Source of the DNA: Basidiobolus meristosporus CBS 931.73
Taxonomy: Eukaryota > Basidiobolomycota > Basidiobolomycetes > Basidiobolales > Basidiobolaceae
DNA: 64,000 nucleotides
Reading direction: 5' to 3'
Assembly: GCA_002104905.1 (NCBI GenBank)
Contig: MCFE01000098.1
Location: forward strand, 108,587 to 172,586
Under the pieces are notes generated by a model, which saw nothing but the letters and a program-made list of their open reading frames with translations, was not told the DNA's origin and ran no database searches. Shown here piece after piece: positions 2,828 through 64,000 of this stretch. Every line of letters starts with the position of its first letter. Position 1 is the stretch's first letter. The position numbers were made by a program, and so were the translations under genes.

Positions 2828-5579
2828 CTAGTATTCTGCATAGCGCACTTCGCCATTATCCATCACCCATTCACAGTACTTTCTCAAGAACTCATCCTTC
2901 ATGCCCACCGTCTCGCTATCGCCGATGACACAGAGGTGACGCTTCGGGCGGGTGATTGCCACATTCAGACGTCGGGAATCCGAGAGAAATCCAACCTCCC
3001 CGGAGTCGTTGGATCGAACCATCGAGAAGATCACCGCTTCTATTGGACATCGTCGATTAAGTAAGCGAGCCAGCCACAAACAGATCTCGATCACCTACCT
3101 TTTTCTCGTCCTTGGAAGCCGTCCACTAAACAATGCCATTGGGTCAGTAGGGAAGTGTAGTCGATGTTATCATAGCAATGACCCACCGGAGCCTATTTCG
3201 AGTTCTGGATAAGCCTCCTTCAAGGCTAGCGTCAGCATCTTGACTTGGGCGTTGTACGGGGTGATCACGGCGATGTCCTCCTCGTGGAGCCCTGCTTCGA
3301 TGAGACTTTTGACGTGCTCCACCACCACAGTGACCTCCCCCTCGTTGTATTTACTGTCGCCGTCCTTCTCGCTGTCCCCCGCCTCGGCCAGCTCGTTCAT
3401 CCCCGCATGGGCCGTGTCAATGAACACCAGTGGGGCGAGGGTGTTGTCGGTCTCCTCGACGTCCGGAATCTGGCTGAGCAGTCGTTCACGGACCGACGCA
3501 TGCGCCACCAGCTTGTCTTCGTAGAATTCCATCGAAGGGAATTTCATGATCATGTCGTGCATCCGATATTGCGTGGTCAGCATGTACTTCACCTTGCTTC
3601 CGTAAACAGCGAGCATGCGATCAAACAGGGTGATCTCCAGGCTTTTTCCGGAGGAGGGGTCGGGTCGCTCGGTGGGGGAGGAGGGGTTGTTGCGATTGGA
3701 TTTGAGGGACTTTATGGTTGGCGGCAGCTGCAGATGATCCCCGGCCTATTCACAACAACAATGGTCAGGGATGGTTACGCACGGATCACAACTTGGATGG
3801 CGGTTACCAAAATCACTTTCTCGGCCTTGAGAATGGCGATCCAGCATTCCTAATTAGATCAGAGAAGCATTGGTTAGTGCGCGAAAGGTGCGTAGTCCCG
3901 AGATCCCTGCTTACAGCTAACAATACAAGTGGTTAGAGGGGATCCATGCTGTGACAAATGATTCCAATCCCACCTTCCAGCGCCTGTGTTGCTTCGTCAA
4001 TGATCACAACGTCAAACTTCCGGTTCTTCATGGTCTTGCTTCCACACCTGCGACAAATCTCGCATTGTTATTCCCTGCAAAGACGGCCAAGTTGGAGGGG
4101 CCTTACCCATTCAGGGTGCTCAGGATCACCGGGGTCTCCTCGAGCAGCTCATTCACCACCCTCCCTTCCCGCTCCCTGAATTCTTTCTTGAGGTCCTTGA
4201 GCTGCTGGTAAAAGCCCTTTCTCTCGGAGCGGTTCCTCGACTTCTGAATACTCGCCATGGTCTGGTCCATCTCCTTCCGTATGTCGCTCACCAGTTGCCC
4301 TTGATCACACGTTTGTGTCACGACGTCGAGGGCGTGCTCCATCACTGCAGGCAAGATTCGCGCAGGATGGCCGACTCGCAGAATATTGATTCGGCATTTG
4401 GCCAGCCTTTCGACCAGATTGTCGACCGAGATATTCGAGGGGCCACACACCAAGACCTTTTTTTCCTGCTTCACCAGCTGTCGGATGATCTCGATCAGCG
4501 TATACGTCTTACCCGTCTAGCCAGGTTGAAAGCGCTGTTTAGCCGCATGTCTTCACTAGGAAACATAAGATTACCTACTCCTGAGCACAATGGACATGAG
4601 TAAGTGGGCCGTAGCCGGGAAGCCATGATGAATCTCTAACCTGGCGGGCCGTGGATCAAGGCGATCTCGTTGGAATTCAGCCCGAATTTCACTGCTTCCT
4701 TCTGCGAGTCGTTCAGATTCTTGTCGAAGAAGGCGATTTTGTTGAATTTTGTCGAGGCTGATGGGGGCTGGAGATTGAAGAGAACCCGAATCAAACTGGT
4801 CTCCCGCGCTCGCTTGAGGTCCATCATGGCCCATTTCATTCTGAAATTGGAAGGCCTTAGCTATGGTTTGCATATGCATGTTTGCTATCGGTCTACCTTT
4901 CGTAGCTGATATTGTTGGCCAGCTTTGTTCTGATCGAATACCAATAAAAGTGGTGAGTGCCTACTCTATCCAATTAATAGTACGCTTCCACCATACATTT
5001 TACATCTGTCCTCCCATTCAACTGGTATCTCCTCCTTCACTGCTACGGTGATAACCGTATCCGTGACCTTCAGTACAACCCCGTCGACGAAAGGAATGGT
5101 TTCGTTGGGCTTCAAGGGTGCCCCGCTTGTAGAACCGGAGCCGGTGGTGACATTTTTGGCGACAGCAAGAGTAGTTCCGCTTGGGGTGTTTGCGGAAACG
5201 CGAAGATCTTCGGTGATTGCAATAATATCTCCAGAGCGGATGCGATGTGGTAGAAAGGCTGAGAGATGCAGGGGCGGCTCAAAGTCAACGACGCTTTGTA
5301 ATAAGAAATATAACATGTAATAATAATATAAACTCCAGTTAGTCGACTCCTCTCAATCTCTAGACTACGATTGGTACTTCCAAAAAGCGAACATCAGATC
5401 TCGTACCTCTTTCCGCCAAGACCGGTTCGAAGTGCTGTAATGCGCAGACCACCCAAGGCAACTCCACGTCTCTGCAGCTGTTGTATCGATTTTTGACCTA
5501 GTAGTTCCGAGTTCTCATCGATTTCTAGTTGTCTTTCTTTTTCCAACAGGTCCAGTTGGTTCTTTACAAACGTCTCCAT
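2828..5579 (-). CDS. SMUBP-2/Hcs1-type superfamily 1 DNA/RNA helicase
   Basis: UPF1-like SF1B helicase of the IGHMBP2/Hcs1 family, ATP-dependent and 5'-3' in characterised relatives. Twelve exons can be joined: 5579-5407, 5293-5004, 4960-4897, 4840-4641, 4580-4579, 4516-4107, 4047-3974, 3916-3915, 3849-3808, 3745-3187, 3125-3099 and 3039-2828. They total 2055 nt, giving 684 residues, close to the family core without the R3H tail of animal IGHMBP2. Motifs in order: RTGLGGK in the N-terminal barrel, Walker A GPPGTGKT, CGPSNISVDNLVERL (Ia), IIDEATQALE (II), AGDHLQLPPT (III), TTQYRMH (IV), SVDGFQGREK (V) and NVAITRPKRHL (VI). Two exons are only 2 nt long, and each completes a codon of a conserved motif. 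The second intron is short (43 nt), so the exon 2/3 junction is the least certain. The gene lies 166 bp downstream of INTS3 on the same strand. Confidence 0.9.
3915..3916 (-). other. Predicted 2-nt microexon (CT) in helicase motif II
   Basis: The upstream exon ends at 3974 after GAA G, and the downstream exon must start at 3849 with GAA TGC TGG because an in-frame TAG immediately precedes it. Two nucleotides are missing. Between them lie an intron 3973-3917 (57 nt, ends TTGTTAG, branch-like CTAAC), the dinucleotide CT, and an intron 3914-3850 (65 nt, GTAAGC..ATTAG, branch-like ACTAACC). Joining gives GAA GCT GAA TGC TGG, reading EAECW, which matches the family pattern after DEATQAL. The donor GTGGGA of the first intron is weak. 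Confidence 0.75.
4579..4580 (-). other. Predicted 2-nt microexon (GA) in helicase Walker A
   Basis: The upstream exon ends at 4641 after CCA G, and the downstream exon must start at 4516 with ACG GGT AAG ACG, because TAG in the same frame sits just before it. Inside the gap are an intron 4640-4581 (60 nt, GTTAGA..CTCAG), the dinucleotide GA, and an intron 4578-4517 (62 nt, GTAGGT..CTAG, branch-like GCTAAAC). Splicing gives CCA GGA ACG GGT, restoring GPPGTGKT exactly. Treating the gap as one 124-nt intron breaks the frame in the P-loop. Confidence 0.78.
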
Positions 5580-57050: not shown

Positions 57051-57467
57051 TAGGGGGGATGATTATCATCAAAGGGTGAAATCTTTATTTAAATCATAAC
57101 TAAAGAAGCCAAGATGGAATATAGACATCTGGAATACAGAAAGCCTACAAGACAAACTTGGACTTAGCTGATTCCCAAATATCATCAATATAAAAGTCTA
57201 GTGGAGTATGTAGCAAGACTGCTTGTTCACTGTAGTATTTCTTGAGGAAGTTTGTGACATGGAGGGAAGGAGAGTTTCTCAATAAGCTGGTAAATCTTTT
57301 GAGGAGTTCTTTTTCCAGAGAGAAGGGCAAAAAGGGTGTAATGTCCAAATGATGTCTGAATATGTGTTCTGAGAGCTCCTAATCCTGTTGTAAAAACTTG
57401 TAATTCCACCTAAATATTCTCATAACTTAGTCACTTAGATCAATACCTACAAATCTTATAGAATACT
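57051..57467 (-). mobile_element. Telomere-associated gag-like element, copy A (5'-truncated)
   Basis: Minus-strand element. Its 3' end abuts the broken hydrolase gene through CCCCCCTA. About 70 codons of the gag-like C-terminus survive (57348-57145, with FSLEKELLKRFTSLL and FLKKYYSEQAVLLH, matching copy C), with stop codons and a frameshift upstream. The 3' tail shares AAATAAAGAT then TTCACC with copies B and C. Confidence 0.72.
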
Positions 57468-57611
57468 GGGTTGGGGGGAGACAGTCACCAACAGGTGAGA
57501 TCTTTATTTCAGCTGAAACAAAGAAGCCAGCACTACTGTTGTAGCTTTGATTTAAGAGTGTGTAGCTGAGGGGAACCTATAAGTAAGTTAATAAGGAGAT
57601 ATGATAGTTCT
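57468..57611 (-). mobile_element. Telomere-associated gag-like element, copy B (3' tail only)
   Basis: Only the last ~140 bp of the element remain: GGGTTGGGGGGAG at the centromere side, then the shared tail (GGTGAGATCTTTATTT and AAAGAAGCCAGC on the plus strand). Same orientation as copies A and C. Confidence 0.65.
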
Positions 57612-58303
57612 TGTTGTATCCAAGAGAAAGTGTAATAAAACTCTTGAATAGTTTAACTGAACCAAAGGGACAATTAAGTGCAGAATCTTAGAATTGTCAG
57701 AGAGTGGCGGAAATATTAGCAGAAAGATTCTGATCTAATATTGGTCTTGGATATAGCTGGATTGGCTATAAATGATATTTGTTTGCTAGGCAGGCTAGGC
57801 TTGGTGTTCTTTGGAGTGCTAGATATACTAGGCTGGGATAGAAACTAGAACGGAATTGTTGGATTCTTTATTTTTGCTGAGACAGAATCTTAATTTCGTT
57901 GAGACACACACTAAACCAAAGGTTCAGTAAACTTTATTTATACTTTTCTGATCAAGTTGAATTAGTAAGCGCCAAGGGACTGGATTGATTGAAATCAATT
58001 TGGGTGTTCATAGGTGCATAAGATAAATGAAAATTACATCATCAATCAACTGATGTCTTGGCAACTGCACCGTGGTTGGATAGATCTCAGATGACTAATC
58101 ACCTGGGAAGGCTTGGCAGATATGTTGATAACGTAATGACCATTTGAAAATAGATCAGGTGTGATAGCTAAAAATAGATTCTGAGGTGGGATAAAATAAA
58201 CTGTAACTGAGATTTGTTATGTTTGGGTTAGGGAAAATCAGTTAGGGTACTAGATTTTCAAACGGAGTAAAATTGGCTAAGTTTTAAATGTTGATGCACA
58301 ACA
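57612..58303 (-). mobile_element. Solo LTR of a Ty3/gypsy-type element
   Basis: 692 bp, starts TGTTGTATCC and ends GATGCACAACA (terminal TGTTG/CAACA inverted repeats). It is flanked by a 5-bp direct repeat GTTCT (57607-57611 and 58304-58308), the expected target-site duplication. No internal region adjoins, so it is a solo LTR left by recombination. It is homologous to the LTRs at 58471 and 60857. Minus orientation is by comparison with those. Confidence 0.85.
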
Positions 58304-58470
58304 GTTCTTCAGTGCTCAAGACACTGTTCAGTGGGAATGGGGGGAGTAGCAAGAAGGGTAAGAATGATTTGTGAACAACATTGATAAGGAGAATATGATA
58401 AGAATTGATATTCATCATAAAGGGAGTGTGCAGTTTCAGATATTGCTGCCAAAGGTATGTCAAGTACTTC
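58304..58470. other. Spacer between LTRs
   Basis: 167 bp of AT-rich sequence between the solo LTR and the next LTR, starting with the second copy of the GTTCT duplication. Not recognised. Confidence 0.5.
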
Positions 58471-59168
58471 TGTTGTATCCAAGAGAAAAGTGTAATAAAA
58501 TTCTTGAATCAGTTAACTGAACCTAAGTGATAACTAAGTGCAGAATTTAGAATTGTCAAGAGTGACAGAAATATTAGCAGAGAGGTTCTAGCCTAATTTT
58601 GGCCTTATATATAGCTGAGTTGGGCTATAAAGGCAACAGAGTAGGTTTGCTATGCAGGCTAGGCTTGGTGTTCTTGAGAGTGCTAGATATGCTAAGCTTG
58701 GGTAGAAACTAGAACAGAGTTGTTGAATTCTTAATTTTGCTGAGGCACAATCTCAATTTTGTTGAGACATGCACCAAACCAAAAGGTTCAGTAAACTTTA
58801 TTTATACTTTTCTTATTGAGTTGCATTAGTAAGCGCCAAGAGACTGGATTAATTCAAATCTGTTGGGGTATTGATAGGTGCATAAGATAAATGAAGAATT
58901 GCATCATTAATTAGCTGATGTCTTGGCAACTGCTAAGTGGTTGGATAAATCTCAGATGACTAATCACTTGGAAAGGCTTAGCAAATCAGTTGAGGATGTA
59001 ATGACCACATGAAAATTGATCAGGTGTGACAGCTAAAAGTAGACTCCAAGAAGTGATAAAATAAACCATGACAGGGATCAGTTATGTTTAGGTTAGGGAA
59101 AATCAGTTAGGGTACTAGATTTTCTAATGTAGTGAAATTGGCCAAGTCTTAAATGTTGATGCACAACA
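58471..59168 (-). mobile_element. 3' LTR of Ty3/gypsy element 2
   Basis: 698 bp, same termini as the solo LTR. On its internal side lies a purine-rich tract on the coding strand (GGGAGGAAGTTA), the expected polypurine primer just before a 3' LTR. The pol remnant that ends next to it is on the minus strand. Confidence 0.82.
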
Positions 59169-60856
59169 TAACTTCCTCCCAGGAGAGGAGTTTTCTGACA
59201 CTTTCTGGGTTCCCCTACAGCTCCAATACTGATTAATGATGGCAACAACATCAAAGTTGGTGTAAGGTTCCCAGGTGTTGTGTTTGGCATCATAACCTTT
59301 CCACTTGACTAAGTAAAGGCAATTTGGCTCTTCTCCATCATGGTCAATAATAGCTTTAGCTTTATAGGATTCAGAAGTAACTGGGTCTTGAGATATAAGT
59401 TTGAGTGAAGAAGGTGGAAAGTTTTTGGGTAGCAGTGCTGCAGTATTGTCCTGAAGTACATAAGATCCTCCAGTGGTATGTCTAACAACTTTAAATGGGC
59501 CTTCATATTTAGGGTCAAGTTTAGATTGTTGGATTGGATCTAGTGTCATGACATATGACCCATCTGGAAAGCTGCTGTTTCTGTGTCTTGAGGCATATGT
59601 TGAAGTCATCTTTTGCTGTGTGGCCTTACTTCTGGCACTGATAGCAGGGTAGACAATGTTTGTAAGGTACTCAAGCCAGTTCTTTAGCTTGTCTGTATTC
59701 AAACTTGCTAGCTCTGTATTCTGGTAGTCCCCAAAGTGGTTGTATCTTCTTCCAAACATCAAAGAAAACGGTGTTGATCCATGTAGAGTGGCAATTTTGG
59801 TGTTGATAGTGTACTGTACAGTAGGAATGTACTTGTCCCAATTCTTCTTGATACCTTTGATAGATTTCCTGATGATGTTCACTGAGGTCTGAACATGTCT
59901 TTCAGCAAGTCCATTAGCTTTTTGATGATATGGAGTGATCAGACAGTGATCAATGGCACTATTCTGGCAGAGGGCTTTGATCACATGATATACAAATTCT
60001 GCTCCATTATCCGATTGAATGACCTTAGGGAATCCAAAAAGGCAGCAGAGCTTGAATAGTGCTTGTGCAATTGTGGCAGCACACTTGTCTGGGATAGCTT
60101 TGAGGAAAACAAAATGTGTAGACATCCACAATTACAAAGAGGTAGTGATTACCATCATCACTAGTGGTGAAAGGCCCAGCTAGATCAATTGCAATATGAT
60201 CCATAGGAAGGCTTGTATGGATGGGACTCAATGGGTGAAATCCATGGTGGCTGATATTGTAAAGTTGACATTCTCTGCAAGACTTGACAAATTCTAGGCA
60301 GTCAGCTTTGATATTTGGCCAGTGATATCCATCAGAGTATAGCTTCTTCATAAGTGTGTCAGCTCCAAAGTATCCAAGTAGATGACTCCTCTGTATCAAC
60401 ATTTTTCTTTCATTGGTATGAGGGATTTTCCAGGTTGCTGAATCCAGTTGAGGAATTATTTTGGAAGTTGTAGTGAGCTTACTGATTGTGTCAGTAATCA
60501 CATGTCCCTCCCAAGGTGAAGTTGGGAAAAGTCTTGAAAGGTGGTCAGGCAGGATGTTGAGGATTCCTGGGCGGTGAATAACTGTATATTCATAATCAAG
60601 TAGAGTATCAAGCCAGTTGGTAAGCATTGGAGTCAGAGTCTTTTGAGTGTGGATATAGACAAGGGCTTGGTGGTTGGTGTACAAGGTAAAAGAGTTGCCC
60701 TATAAGTACTGATGAAACTTCTTCAAGGCAAAGACTATGGCAAGTAGCTCCTACTTGGTGGCAGAGTAGTTTCTTTCAGCAGGTTGTAGAGATCTGGCTT
60801 GAAAAGAGATCCAGTGAGGCAGATTTTGGTCTTCATCCTGGTATAGGACAGCCCCT
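59169..60856 (-). pseudogene. Ty3/gypsy chromovirus pol remnant (RNase H, integrase, chromodomain)
   Basis: Internal region of element 2. Reading on the minus strand: a partial RNase H segment with two in-frame TAG codons (60690-60850), the tail HRPGILNILPDHLSRL, an integrase zinc-binding domain (GYFGADTLMKKLY to CRECQ), the core with IDLAGP, QSDNGAEF and NGLAERHVQ (the D, D, E residues), and a C-terminal chromodomain (LYLVKWKGYDAKHNTWEPY). A frameshift near 60120 separates the first Asp from the other two. Reverse transcriptase, protease and gag are absent because LTR 60857 interrupts the element. The chromodomain marks it as a chromovirus. It is fungal and inactive. Confidence 0.85.
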
Positions 60857-61554
60857 TGTTGTATCAAAGAGAAAGTGTAATAAAACTCTTGAATGGTTTA
60901 ACTGAACCAAAGGGACAATTAAGTGCAGAATCTTAGAATTGTCAGAGAGTGGTGGAAATATTAGCAGAAAGATTCTGATCTAATATTGGTCTTGGATATA
61001 GCTGGGTTGGCTATAAAGACAATGATATTTGTTTGCTAGGCAGGCTAGGCTTGGTGTTCTTTGGAGTGCTAGATATACTAGGCTTGGATAGAGACTAGAA
61101 CGGAATTGTTAGATTCTTTATTTTTGCTGAGACAGAATCTTAATTTTGTTGAGACACACACTAAACCAAAAGGTTCAGTAAACTTTATTTATACTTTTCT
61201 GATCAAGTTGAATTAGTAAGCGCCAAGGGACTGGATTGATTGAAATCAATTTGGGTGTTCATAGGTGCATAAGATAAATGAAAATTACATCATCAATCAA
61301 CTGATGTCTTGACAACTGCACCATGGTTGGATATATCTCAGATGACTAATCACCTGGGAAGGCTTGGCAGATATGTTGATAACGTAATGACCATTTGAAA
61401 ATAGATCAGGTGTGATAGCTAAAAATAGATTCTGAGGTGGGATAAAATAAACTGTAACTGGGATTTGTTATGTTTGGGTTAGGGAAAATCAGTTAGGGTA
61501 CTAGATTTTCAAACGGAGTAAAATTGGCTAAGTTTTAAATGTTGATGCACAACA
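60857..61554 (-). mobile_element. 3' LTR of Ty3/gypsy element 3
   Basis: 698 bp with the TGTTGTATC...GCACAACA termini. Its outer end cuts into the RNase H region of element 2, and its inner end is followed by a purine tract and a second integrase/chromodomain copy. Element 3 therefore inserted into element 2. Confidence 0.82.
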
Positions 61555-62355
61555 TCACTTCCTTCCGGAAGAGGAGTTTTTTGATACCTTCTGGGTTCCT
61601 CTGCGGCTCCAATACTGATCAATAATGGCAACATCATCAAAGTTGGTGTAAGGTTCCCAGGTGTTGTGTTTGGCATCATAGCCTTTCCACTTGACTAAAT
61701 AAAGGCAATTTGGTTCTTCTCCATCATGGTCCACAATAGCTTCAAGTTCATAGGATTCCAAAGTTACTGGGTCTTGAGAAATAAGTTTGAGTGAAGAAGG
61801 TGGAAAGTGATTGGGTAGCAGTGCTCCAGTGTTATCCTGAAGTACGTAAGATCCTCCAGTAGTGCGTCTGACAACCTTGAATGGTCCTTCATACTTGGGG
61901 TCAAGCTTAGATTGCCGGATTGGATCTAGTGTCATGACATATGACCCATCTGGGAAGCTGCTGTTCCTGTGTCTTGAGGCATATGTTGAAGTCATCTTTT
62001 GCTGTGTGGCCTTACTTCTGGCACTGATAGCAGGGTAGACAATGTTTGTAAGGTACTCAAGCCAGTTCTTTAGCTTGTCTGTATTCAAACTTGCTAGCTC
62101 TGTATTCTGGTAGTCCCCAAAGTGGTTGTATCTTCTTCCAAACATCAAAGAAAACGGTGTTGATCCATGTAGAGTGGCAATTTTGGTGTTGATAGTGTAC
62201 TGTACAGTAGGAATGTACTTGTCCCAATTCTTCTTGATACCTTTGATAGATTTCCTGATGATGTTCACTGAGGTCTGAACATGTCTTTCAGCAAGTCCAT
62301 TAGCTTTTTGATGATATGGAGTGATCAGACAGTGATCAATGGCACTATTCTGGCA
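61555..62355 (-). pseudogene. Integrase/chromodomain remnant of Ty3/gypsy element 3
   Basis: Second copy of the integrase C-terminal part and chromodomain, nearly identical to 59169-60000 (Glu of NGLAERHVQ, KWKGYDAKHNTWEPYTNF). The open frame is intact from 62355 to 61555, but the sequence stops abruptly at 62355, in the codons corresponding to CQNSAIDHC. It is joined there to telomeric repeats, so the zinc finger, most of the core and everything upstream are missing. Confidence 0.85.
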
Positions 62356-62370
62356 GGTTAGGGTTAGGGG
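62356..62370 (+). repeat. Interstitial telomeric repeat at element junction
   Basis: GGTTAGGGTTAGGGG lies exactly between the broken integrase sequence and the 3' end of gag-like element copy C. It runs in the same direction as the terminal telomere. Confidence 0.85.
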
Positions 62371-63262
62371 AGGGAAAGTCACCAAGGTAGGTGAAATCTT
62401 TATTTGATTTCAGACAAGTCTAACTACAAATAAAGAAGCCAGCTGGGAATAGAAGATTCCCAAAGTAAACACTAAGTTGAATATGAATAAATCTAAGCTA
62501 AAGTTAAGGCAGTATCCCAGAGTACACTGGAGTTCAGGTTCATGGGGGAGTGAAGTAGATAAGCTTGAGAGATATAATAATCTTTTAAGAAGTGGGTAAC
62601 AGCAGGTGAAGGGGAGTTTTTGATAAGTGAAGTGAATCTTGAGAGCAGAGATTCCTCTAATGAGAAGGTCTTGTAAACTGGAGAATCAGGAAACTCTTTA
62701 AAGGCATGGTCAGTAGGTTCCCAGTAAAACTGGTCAGAGACATTTTGAGAGAATTGTTCAGCAATACTTTTGTCAAGTACTACCTCCAGAGTGTGATGGT
62801 TGATAAATCTCATGTTAACAATCTTGGATAAATTGTAACCTTGTTGCTTGAGATACATCCTATGCTCAGATATGGGAATAAAGTCCACATTGGCAAAGTA
62901 GCAGACAGCCCAGTCAGTAGCAGGAGGCAAATCAGAAGTGGCAGGAAACTTTCTTTTAGTCTTGGGAGGAGCAGCAGGATATCTTGAGGAAGCAGGAACA
63001 GACTTTTTGACAGCTTCAGAGTAGGAAGAGTAAGCAGGAGCAGATGATTCTTGGGGAGTCTTGTTGGCAGGAAGAGTTGGCACAGGGACAATTGATTCTT
63101 GCAGATCAGAGAAGGCAGAAAACAGCTTTTGAACTTGCTTCTTGAGTAAAGCATTTTCAGCCTCAACAAGTGCAAGCCTTTCCTCAAGGAAAGAAATCTG
63201 AAGGGAATGGAGTGAAGGCATAAGAATCAAGAAGAAGAGGGAAGGATGGGGTGGGTGGGTGG
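62371..63262 (-). mobile_element. Telomere-associated gag-like element, copy C
   Basis: The longest copy. On the minus strand: 5' region next to the 101-bp repeats, one reading frame (63221-62493), a ~120-bp 3' tail with AATAAA, then CCTCCCC and the telomeric junction. Same orientation as copies A and B, 3' end toward the centromere. No reverse transcriptase frame is present. Confidence 0.75.
62493..63221 (-). CDS. Gag-like ORF of the telomere-associated element
   Basis: 242 residues from the ATG at 63221; the frame is open further upstream but has no earlier ATG in the element. An N-terminal coiled coil (FLEERLALVEAENALLKKQV) is followed by a Pro/Ser/Lys-rich linker, then a globular part with WAVCYFANVDFIPISEHRMY and NMRFINHHTLEVVLDKS, and a helical C-terminus (SRFTSLIKNSPSPAVTHFLK). 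Coiled coil, basic linker and small alpha-beta domain match the layout of ORF1/gag proteins of non-LTR retrotransposons. No CCHC knuckle is seen. The C-terminal ~65 residues recur in copy A. It is intact, so it could be expressed. Function is inferred from layout and context only. Confidence 0.65.
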   Translation of the reverse strand: MPSLHSLQISFLEERLALVEAENALLKKQVQKLFSAFSDLQESIVPVPTLPANKTPQESSAPAYSSYSEAVKKSVPASSRYPAAPPKTKRKFPATSDLPPATDWAVCYFANVDFIPISEHRMYLKQQGYNLSKIVNMRFINHHTLEVVLDKSIAEQFSQNVSDQFYWEPTDHAFKEFPDSPVYKTFSLEESLLSRFTSLIKNSPSPAVTHFLKDYYISQAYLLHSPMNLNSSVLWDTALTLA

Positions 63263-63758
63263 GAAAATTAGCAGGTAGAAGAGAAGGAAGGAGCAAAAAT
63301 TCCAGAAGTCAGAATTTATAGATGGATGGACAAGGGTAGATGGATGGATTATTCCTGGGTTAGGAAAATTAGCAGGTAGAAGAGAAGGAAGGAGCAAAAA
63401 TTCCAGAAGTCAGAATTTATAGATGGATGGACAAGGGTAGATGGATGGATTATTCCTGGGTTAGGAAAATTAGCAGGTAGAAGAGAAGGAAGGAGCAAAA
63501 ATTCCAGAAGTCAGAATTTATAGATGGATGGACAAGGGTAGATGGATGGATTATTCCTGGGTTAGGAAAATTAGCAGGTAGAAGAGAAGGAAGGAGCAAA
63601 AATTCCAGAAGTCAGAATTTATAGATGGATGGACAAGGGTAGATGGATGGATTATTCCTGGGTTAGGAAAATTAGCAGGTAGAAGAGAAGGAAGGAGCAA
63701 AAATTCCAGAAGTCAGAATTTATAGATGGATGGACAAGGGTAGATGGATGGATTATTC
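63263..63758. repeat. 101-bp subtelomeric tandem repeat, five copies
   Basis: Units with GCAGGTAGAAGAGAAGGAAG start at 63271, 63372, 63473, 63574 and 63675, a period of exactly 101 bp and near-perfect identity. Each unit contains GATGGATGG motifs, and most junctions read CTGGGTTAGG, a telomere-like core. The first unit grades into the 5' region of the gag-like element, the last runs directly into TTAGGG repeats. Confidence 0.92.
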
Positions 63759-64000
63759 TTAGGGTTAGGGTTAGGGTTAGGGTTAGGGTTAGGGTTAGGG
63801 TTAGGGTTAGGGTTAGGGTTAGGGTTAGGGTTAGGGTTAGGGTTAGGGTTAGGGTTAGGGTTAGGGTTAGGGTTAGGGTTAGGGTTAGGGTTAGGGTTAG
63901 GGTTAGGGTTAGGGTTAGGGTTAGGGTTAGGGTTAGGGTTAGGGTTAGGGTTAGGGTTAGGGTTAGGGTTAGGGTTAGGGTTAGGGTTAGGGTTAGGGTT
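63759..64000 (+). repeat. Telomere, (TTAGGG)n
   Basis: About 40 uninterrupted TTAGGG units running to the end of the window, G-rich strand 5' to 3' toward the end. This marks the right chromosome terminus and a vertebrate-type telomerase template, common in filamentous fungi. Confidence 0.98.

Follow-up and report, generated by a model that had tools for sequence, protein, structure and literature searches.

A candidate gag-only retroelement and its partner families at chromosome ends of Basidiobolus meristosporus

An element lying next to the telomere at one contig end of Basidiobolus meristosporus CBS 931.73, here called F1, is probably a non-autonomous, gag-only non-LTR retroelement, one member of a consortium of at least five families that live at chromosome ends. 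The arrangement resembles that of HeT-A and TART, would have arisen convergently, and would operate in a telomerase-positive fungus. The window, i.e. the whole stretch of DNA that was analysed, comprises 64,000 nucleotides at the end of contig C1290 (C1290:108587-172586), and searches were carried out on the assembly of 89.0 Mb in 1,311 contigs. Five families with one common 3' tail were identified: F1 and F4, which are gag-only, F3 and F5, which are LINEs, and F2, which is SINE-like.

The window copies and the common tail

Tails at 57059, 57479 and 62371 of the window all have their transcript 3' ends facing the contig interior. The initial annotation had taken the three copies for one element, a reading that is rejected here: they belong instead to three families, F4 (57059), F3 (57479) and F1 (62371). 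The F4 copy is the 3' part of a truncated gag-only element (57059..57385, minus strand), with its tail core starting at 57059 after TAGGGGGG, and it matches the F4 copy of the sampled stretch L015 over 332 bp with 87.7% identity. The F3 copy is also truncated, and is in addition split by a solo LTR and then by a Ty3/gypsy-type sequence. Its first piece (57479..57610, minus strand) is the LINE 3' end with the common tail, the core running from 57479, and is 91% identical to the F3 LINEs in stretches L071/L072; the LINE continues in a second piece (58303..58470, minus strand) with 90.5% identity to the same stretches. The solo LTR between them (57611..58302, no strand assigned) is bordered by a 5-bp duplication, AGTTC (57606-57610 and 58303-58307), and shows 97% and 84% identity to the window's other two LTR copies.

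The Ty3/gypsy-type sequence (58471..62356, minus strand) consists of an LTR, integrase and chromodomain ORFs, an LTR and a second internal piece that is 93.9% identical to the first; in Pfam, Chromo and Integrase_H2C2 score over the cut-off and rve slightly under it. This element is severed at 62356, a point past which the neighbouring copy (the first internal piece) extends, and in the window no Ty3/gypsy sequence resumes beyond the F1 element. The order LTR-internal-LTR-internal, severed on the telomere side, perhaps represents a tandem pair with a common LTR.

A junction spacer, GTTAGGGTTAGGGG (62357..62370, plus strand), separates the severed Ty3/gypsy sequence from F1 (62371..63758, minus strand). 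From its 3' end, F1 comprises the common tail (62371..62405), with a C-rich 3' end, a predicted CACC/GGTG hairpin (62380-62393) and an AATAAA signal (62399-62404), followed by a gag-like ORF of 242 aa (62493..63221) and, on the 5' side, five tandem repeats of 101 bp each, which are about 99% alike and abut the telomere (63262..63758), all on the minus strand. The gag-only coding content attributed to this element by the initial annotation is thus borne out; its limit, placed at 63262, is not, for F1 runs on through the repeats to 63758. Shortening on the 5' side, claimed for all three copies, is seen in those of F4 and F3; F1 has its whole ORF plus the five 5' repeats. The contig closes with the telomerase-type repeats that had been said to cap the end, (TTAGGG)40 (63759..64000, plus strand).

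The tail core GGTGARATCTTTATTT occurs 1,723 times genome-wide (1,568 forward and 155 reverse copies), compared with 0 for a reversed-pattern control across the whole genome, and so is not due to chance. Counts of exact-core tails by family, made for F1 to F3 only, are 674 for F3, 419 for F2 and 212 for F1. Read in the transcript sense, the common tail presents AATAAA, a CACC/GGTG hairpin and a C-rich end, and the extent visibly common to the families is some tens of nucleotides. Folding predicts the hairpin in the tails of four of the five families, with modest z-scores of -1.1 to -2.6, and does not predict it in the window F4 tail. Long F1 DNA matches have the same 3' end, beginning at query base 1-11 in all of the best 40 of 688. 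The transcript was originally expected to finish in a C-rich, CCCTAA-like sequence; the C-rich end stands, but the tail itself seems to finish in a C-run, with CCCTAA supplied by the junction, judging from the few junctions that lack TTAGGG. It had been recommended to look for an autonomous element that encodes reverse transcriptase and ends in this 3' tail, and the search yielded two LINEs, F3 and F5. Because the tail is common to two LINEs, two gag-only elements and the SINE-like F2, its best explanation is that one enzyme system recognises it.

Junctions and family membership were studied in a sample of 40 stretches (208 kb) drawn from 37 contigs and containing 106 tails, of which 102 could be parsed and assigned and four were unparsed. 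Most of these stretches were selected for their close match to the window at the DNA or protein level, a choice that biases junctions and pN/pS towards full-length, recent copies.

The SINE-like partner was unforeseen in the initial annotation. Sixteen full-length copies of F2 measure 518-522 nt and are on average 97.7% alike. Measured against the consensus of the Pol III boxes, the B box near +55 is exact in 15 of the 16, and the A box near +12 has one mismatch in all 16. Stop-free runs in F2 are never over 74 codons, and the tail is of LINE type. ARAGORN and Rfam recognised no tRNA in stretch L069, which contains F2 copies; an Rfam match to FMR1-AS1, below its cut-off, was taken as chance.

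Coding capacity of the gag-only elements and LINEs

The F1 gag (242 aa) has a predicted coiled coil at residues 4-40, a putative RRM-like domain at about 104-171, and predicted C-terminal helices. Structure comparison of its model by VIA gave RRM-like matches; Foldseek gave no match with E under 0.001, LINE-1 ORF1p was absent among the fold matches listed, and nothing in Pfam scored above cut-off. Relatives in the PDB were sought by sequence, with two designed-protein matches (E 0.013 and 0.72), which were disregarded, and none other. Among sampled full-length ungapped copies, 33 of 34 are open, and a pN/pS of 0.26 (codon bootstrap 0.17-0.39, from 528 pairs of open copies in a sample skewed to window-like copies) indicates that the gag is under purifying selection in these copies. 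The F4 copy in L015 has a frame of 285 aa with 44% identity to the F1 gag and the same gag-only architecture, and a relative in B. ranarum is 49% identical over 67% of the query.

It is distinctly improbable, in our judgement, that F1 is a defunct LINE remnant produced by deletion, which continues to be copied and whose protein has no role. Such an origin would fit an element that has no reverse transcriptase and relies on others, and passages of PMC7367193 term MoTeR2 a likely defective element. However, the open frames, the low pN/pS with its upper bound of 0.39, the existence of the B. ranarum relative and the architecture that F4 keeps at its level of divergence all speak against it, as does the low identity, confined to a portion of the F1 gag, with the ORF1s of the two LINEs: 35% (over 162 aa) and 27% (over 86 aa).

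The F3 LINE is about 4.7 kb long. Its ORF2 frame of 922 aa carries a strong RVT_1 match and a weak APE-type match, below the Pfam cut-off; this frame is found in 37 of 63 scored F3 matches, and one of the 37 has an in-frame stop in the matched part. In the F3 copy examined, ORF1, which has an N-terminal Cys-rich motif, falls into two separate frames. The second LINE, F5, has an ORF2 frame of 949 aa that is 46% identical to that of F3 and is both recurrent and the longest among F5 matches, one decayed relative being listed with 1026; its ORF1 frame of 497 aa stops short of its homologues. An ORF1 piece of one of these LINEs shows 98% identity, across 75% of its length, to a B. meristosporus CBS 931.73 protein. 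As ORF1 of F3 and F5 is never one whole frame in the copies read, no fully intact LINE is present among those copies. Two public contigs (4,892 and 4,636 bases) apparently match both ORF1 and ORF2 and may hold whole related LINEs.

The endonuclease domain of the F3 and F5 ORF2 retains most APE motifs (N, Y, GDxN, D and SDH). At the metal-binding position that usually holds the catalytic Glu of APE, F3, F5 and two relatives have Asp, their motif reading IDV, versus ET/EA in other aligned LINEs. The C-terminal part of F3 ORF2 has no Pfam match and, by eye, no CCHC or RHD-type motif. Telomerase is encoded in this genome, judging by a match to the TERT RNA-binding domain above cut-off, in two pieces, at C880:173109-173423. 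One of these pieces has an in-frame TAG, perhaps within an intron.

Chromosome ends and junction structure

The elements point to chromosome ends, as the initial annotation had proposed. On contigs of known length, which cover 85 of at least 154 gag matches, 84 of the 85 point to the nearer contig end. At 83 of 102 junctions the flank is the broken 5' side of a member of the five families, and at none of these 83 is it in opposite orientation. Among the first 100 listed tails, the 36 on contigs of more than 100 kb all lie within 25 kb of the end to which they point (the length of C2 being taken as its last listed telomere match), and TTAGGG stands a few bases before the tail in 84 of the 100, the kind of junction for which a search at other chromosome ends had been recommended. 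Terminal TTAGGG tracts of 116-249 nt lie beyond the elements at 18 contig ends, one of them a left end.

These tracts, the arrays that are same-oriented yet different between contigs, and the severed Ty3 flank in the window make it highly improbable that repeats have merely been heaped at contig ends by the assembler. The features that would suit such an artefact are six left contig ends that lack telomere repeats at their start and mostly begin within an element, and the odd strand ratio of telomere 18-mers in the whole assembly, 103 reverse versus 8,002 forward. The ratio places telomeres mostly at the right of contigs, and this bias looks like an assembler habit. By an estimate using about 210 nt per end, the 18-mer total implies in the order of 200 telomere-bearing contig ends, which would mean that chromosomes are very numerous or that many of the ends are variants.

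A majority of copies at internal sites with target duplications, both orientations near telomeres and random junctions, named at the outset as patterns that would count against terminal attachment, are absent overall, with three exceptions. In C251, which is 12.8 kb long, a gag match is directed towards the more distant contig end. An array at C558:97000-100500 lies mid-way along a 218-kb contig, beside diverged tail-like sequence. At C726:55500-61500, tails that are a few hundred bases apart face each other, and CCCTAA lies on one side; this may be a fusion of chromosome ends, a very small insert between two ends, or a misassembly.

Junctions have a fixed register. A G-run of at least 3 precedes the tail core at 100 of 102 junctions, all sampled via their tails, so that tail-less copies fall outside the sample; the fixed tail-telomere junction that had been claimed from the window thus recurs. 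A telomere-phase match of at least 6 nt, i.e. a whole TTAGGG in phase, is found at 83 of the 102, and a match under 5 nt at 10, two of these with an irregular G-run. Spacers have a median of 9 nt if perfect repeats are counted, or 10 nt if variant units are allowed, versus the 116-249 nt at the 18 ends; those of at least 24 nt number 2 of 102 by perfect repeats and 5 of 102 with variant units, against an expected share of 89% for random insertion into a 214-nt tract. Sixty junctions are testable for resumption of the flank beyond the element (42 of 102 are untestable), and at 58 the flank fails to resume; at the remaining two, the apparent resumption matches the element's own repeats. This agrees with the earlier proposal of terminal attachment as opposed to ordinary internal insertion.

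The same junctions bear on a different route, in which the LINE enzyme nicks near the telomere base and elements insert in the TTAGGG tract, the spacers shrinking later, as for SART/TRAS and as suspected for MoTeR. Nicking is possible, since the F3 and F5 LINEs keep an APE-like endonuclease domain, albeit a weakly matching one, with most of its motifs; TTAGGG is indeed at the junction of most listed tails; and MoTeR spacers extend from half a unit to more than 20 units, in tracts that are reported to break and rearrange (passages of PMC7367193). We nevertheless consider this route rather unlikely, given spacer lengths far from those of random insertion in a tract as long as at contig ends, the ten junctions with a telomere-phase match under 5 nt, the loss of flank beyond the element, and the replacement of the endonuclease Glu by Asp.

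Details of the junctions are instead in line with addition at the chromosome end itself. The G-run length is mostly 4 with or without a preceding TTAGGG in F1 (31 of 39) and F5 (7 of 8), a constancy that is expected if the telomere GGG and the RNA C-run overlap. This overlap is not clean in F3, the G-runs of which are longer and more variable without TTAGGG (6-11 versus 5-7). Bare tail pieces of some tens of nucleotides lie between elements (L136 near 116-154 and L069 near 4054-4095), as expected if copying starts at the tail and aborts. No A-run was seen by eye between tail and telomere in the junction listing, and priming thus appears to take place at the C-run and not at a poly(A) tail.

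The 74 non-recurrent junctions have 73 distinct breakpoints, so the sampled junctions represent separate events. Together with the open ORF2 frames and the selection on gag, this renders improbable a spread of the arrays chiefly by recombination or break-induced copying between ends, with retrotransposition old and rare. Rearrangements of that kind are documented for MoTeR arrays (passages of PMC7367193), and the high likeness of the copies would suit such a spread.

Gag divergence shows no correlation with how far a copy lies from the contig end (rho -0.03, n=55, for right-end gag matches on contigs over 50 kb, with the window's own copy excluded), and an older-inside order is therefore not seen genome-wide. 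The order in the window (88, 91 and 97.7%) fits an age gradient, as a single case that compares different families. Strict outward growth at all ends is not supported; rearrangement between ends may blur the gradient.

Proposed mechanism and comparison with known systems

The fixed junction register, the shortness of the spacers, the loss of flanks and the tail pieces left by aborted copying speak for elements being added where the terminal Gs of a chromosome end can pair with the C-run, and on this sequence evidence end-priming without nicking is likely. In the mechanism we propose, the F3 and F5 LINEs would supply reverse transcriptase and mobilise the other families in trans, F1 and F4 would supply additional gag, and F2, which encodes nothing, would hitchhike. 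The RNA would begin in the 5' repeats and end near the C-run, and would be bound via its tail by gag and the LINE enzyme. At an end that is short or has just been healed, the 3' G-strand, finishing in TTAGGG or in G, would then pair with the C-run and prime copying, which could halt anywhere up to the RNA 5' end, after which telomerase would cap the new end. Repeated rounds would produce head-to-tail arrays with short TTAGGG spacers. Because the genome encodes telomerase and its chromosome ends bear repeats of the telomerase type, the elements would work in parallel with that enzyme.

A broader reading, which we offer tentatively as a possibility somewhat short of probable, is that short or broken ends are routinely extended by cooperating retroelements, that the common tail lets a bare G-strand prime, that gag-only elements are end-targeting helpers, an independent invention of HeT-A, and that a SINE has evolved to telomere life. 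If so, telomerase and retroelements would be two layers of one end-maintenance system. The known precedent is HeT-A/TART, in which a gag-only element relies on reverse transcriptase elements at the telomeres of a host that has lost telomerase. A fungus that divides the work in the same way, and has both a SINE-like element at telomeres and a telomerase gene, would show that the arrangement can evolve repeatedly and need not await the loss of telomerase. With 1,723 tails and short, readable junctions, priming by chromosome ends would become testable largely by sequence.

The system does not match the full definition of any of the described families with which it was compared. We place it as a variant of telomeric non-LTR retroelements, because its TTAGGG caps and telomerase separate it from HeT-A/TART/TAHRE (HTT), and because no restriction-like endonuclease, as in MoTeR, was seen. 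By analogy, it would work like HeT-A/TART, with an array layout that looks like that of MoTeR1/2. Neither a telomeric retroelement of Basidiobolus nor a telomere-specific SINE was found in the literature searched, which covers few subscription journals and, for the SINE, includes portions of PMC4700185.

HeT-A, TART and TAHRE of Drosophila combine gag-only and reverse transcriptase elements in tandem end arrays, with gag under selection (as described in parts of PMC4467039 and PMC4700185). The Basidiobolus families likewise include gag-only and reverse transcriptase members at chromosome ends in the same orientation. Unlike the Drosophila telomeres, which are made of the elements, the ends here have TTAGGG caps in a genome with a TERT domain, junctions run through TTAGGG and the G-run, one tail is common to five families, and a SINE-like member is present. 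In homologue searches with the gag and the LINEs, no protein named as an HTT element was among the matches listed, and nothing found suggests kinship.

SART and TRAS of Bombyx are two-ORF LINEs with endonuclease and reverse transcriptase at telomeric repeats, where the endonuclease cuts TTAGG between T and A (parts of PMC4700185), and they insert in opposite orientations (parts of PMC10088271). F3 and F5 also have the two-ORF plan with APE endonuclease and reverse transcriptase, with the qualification that the endonuclease match is below the Pfam cut-off and has Glu changed to Asp, and that ORF1 is broken in the copies read. In contrast to SART/TRAS, orientation is uniform and 83 of 102 joints keep a whole TTAGGG in phase; gag-only and SINE-like partners, both present here, do not feature in the portions of the description compared. 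The rotifer Athena elements, endonuclease-deficient Penelope-like elements, are telomere-associated too (parts of PMC10088271), but are of Penelope type as described there, whereas the Basidiobolus LINEs have a LINE-type ORF2 with RVT_1, an APE-like domain and an ORF1. F2 resembles tRNA-derived SINEs in its A and B boxes and LINE-type tail, and differs from them in having no recognisable tRNA structure in L069 and in sitting in telomeric arrays.

MoTeRs of Magnaporthe are arranged head-to-tail with (TTAGGG)n between copies, and MoTeR1 has a partner without reverse transcriptase, MoTeR2, the two having 860 bp of 5' and 77 bp of 3' terminal sequence in common; passages of the same source describe the MoTeR2-specific sequence as unrelated and without obvious function (PMC7367193). 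The Basidiobolus arrays are also head-to-tail with (TTAGGG)n between elements, but the sequence in common is a tail of some tens of nucleotides, and F1 and F4, unlike MoTeR2, encode an ORF1-type protein. In place of the restriction-enzyme-like endonuclease that lies C-terminal to the reverse transcriptase in MoTeR and FoTeR, there is an APE-like domain, with a separate ORF1. As fungal telomeric non-LTR elements the three systems are alike, and the upstream tandem repeats of the Fusarium FoTeRs (parts of PMC12857005) have a counterpart in those of F1.
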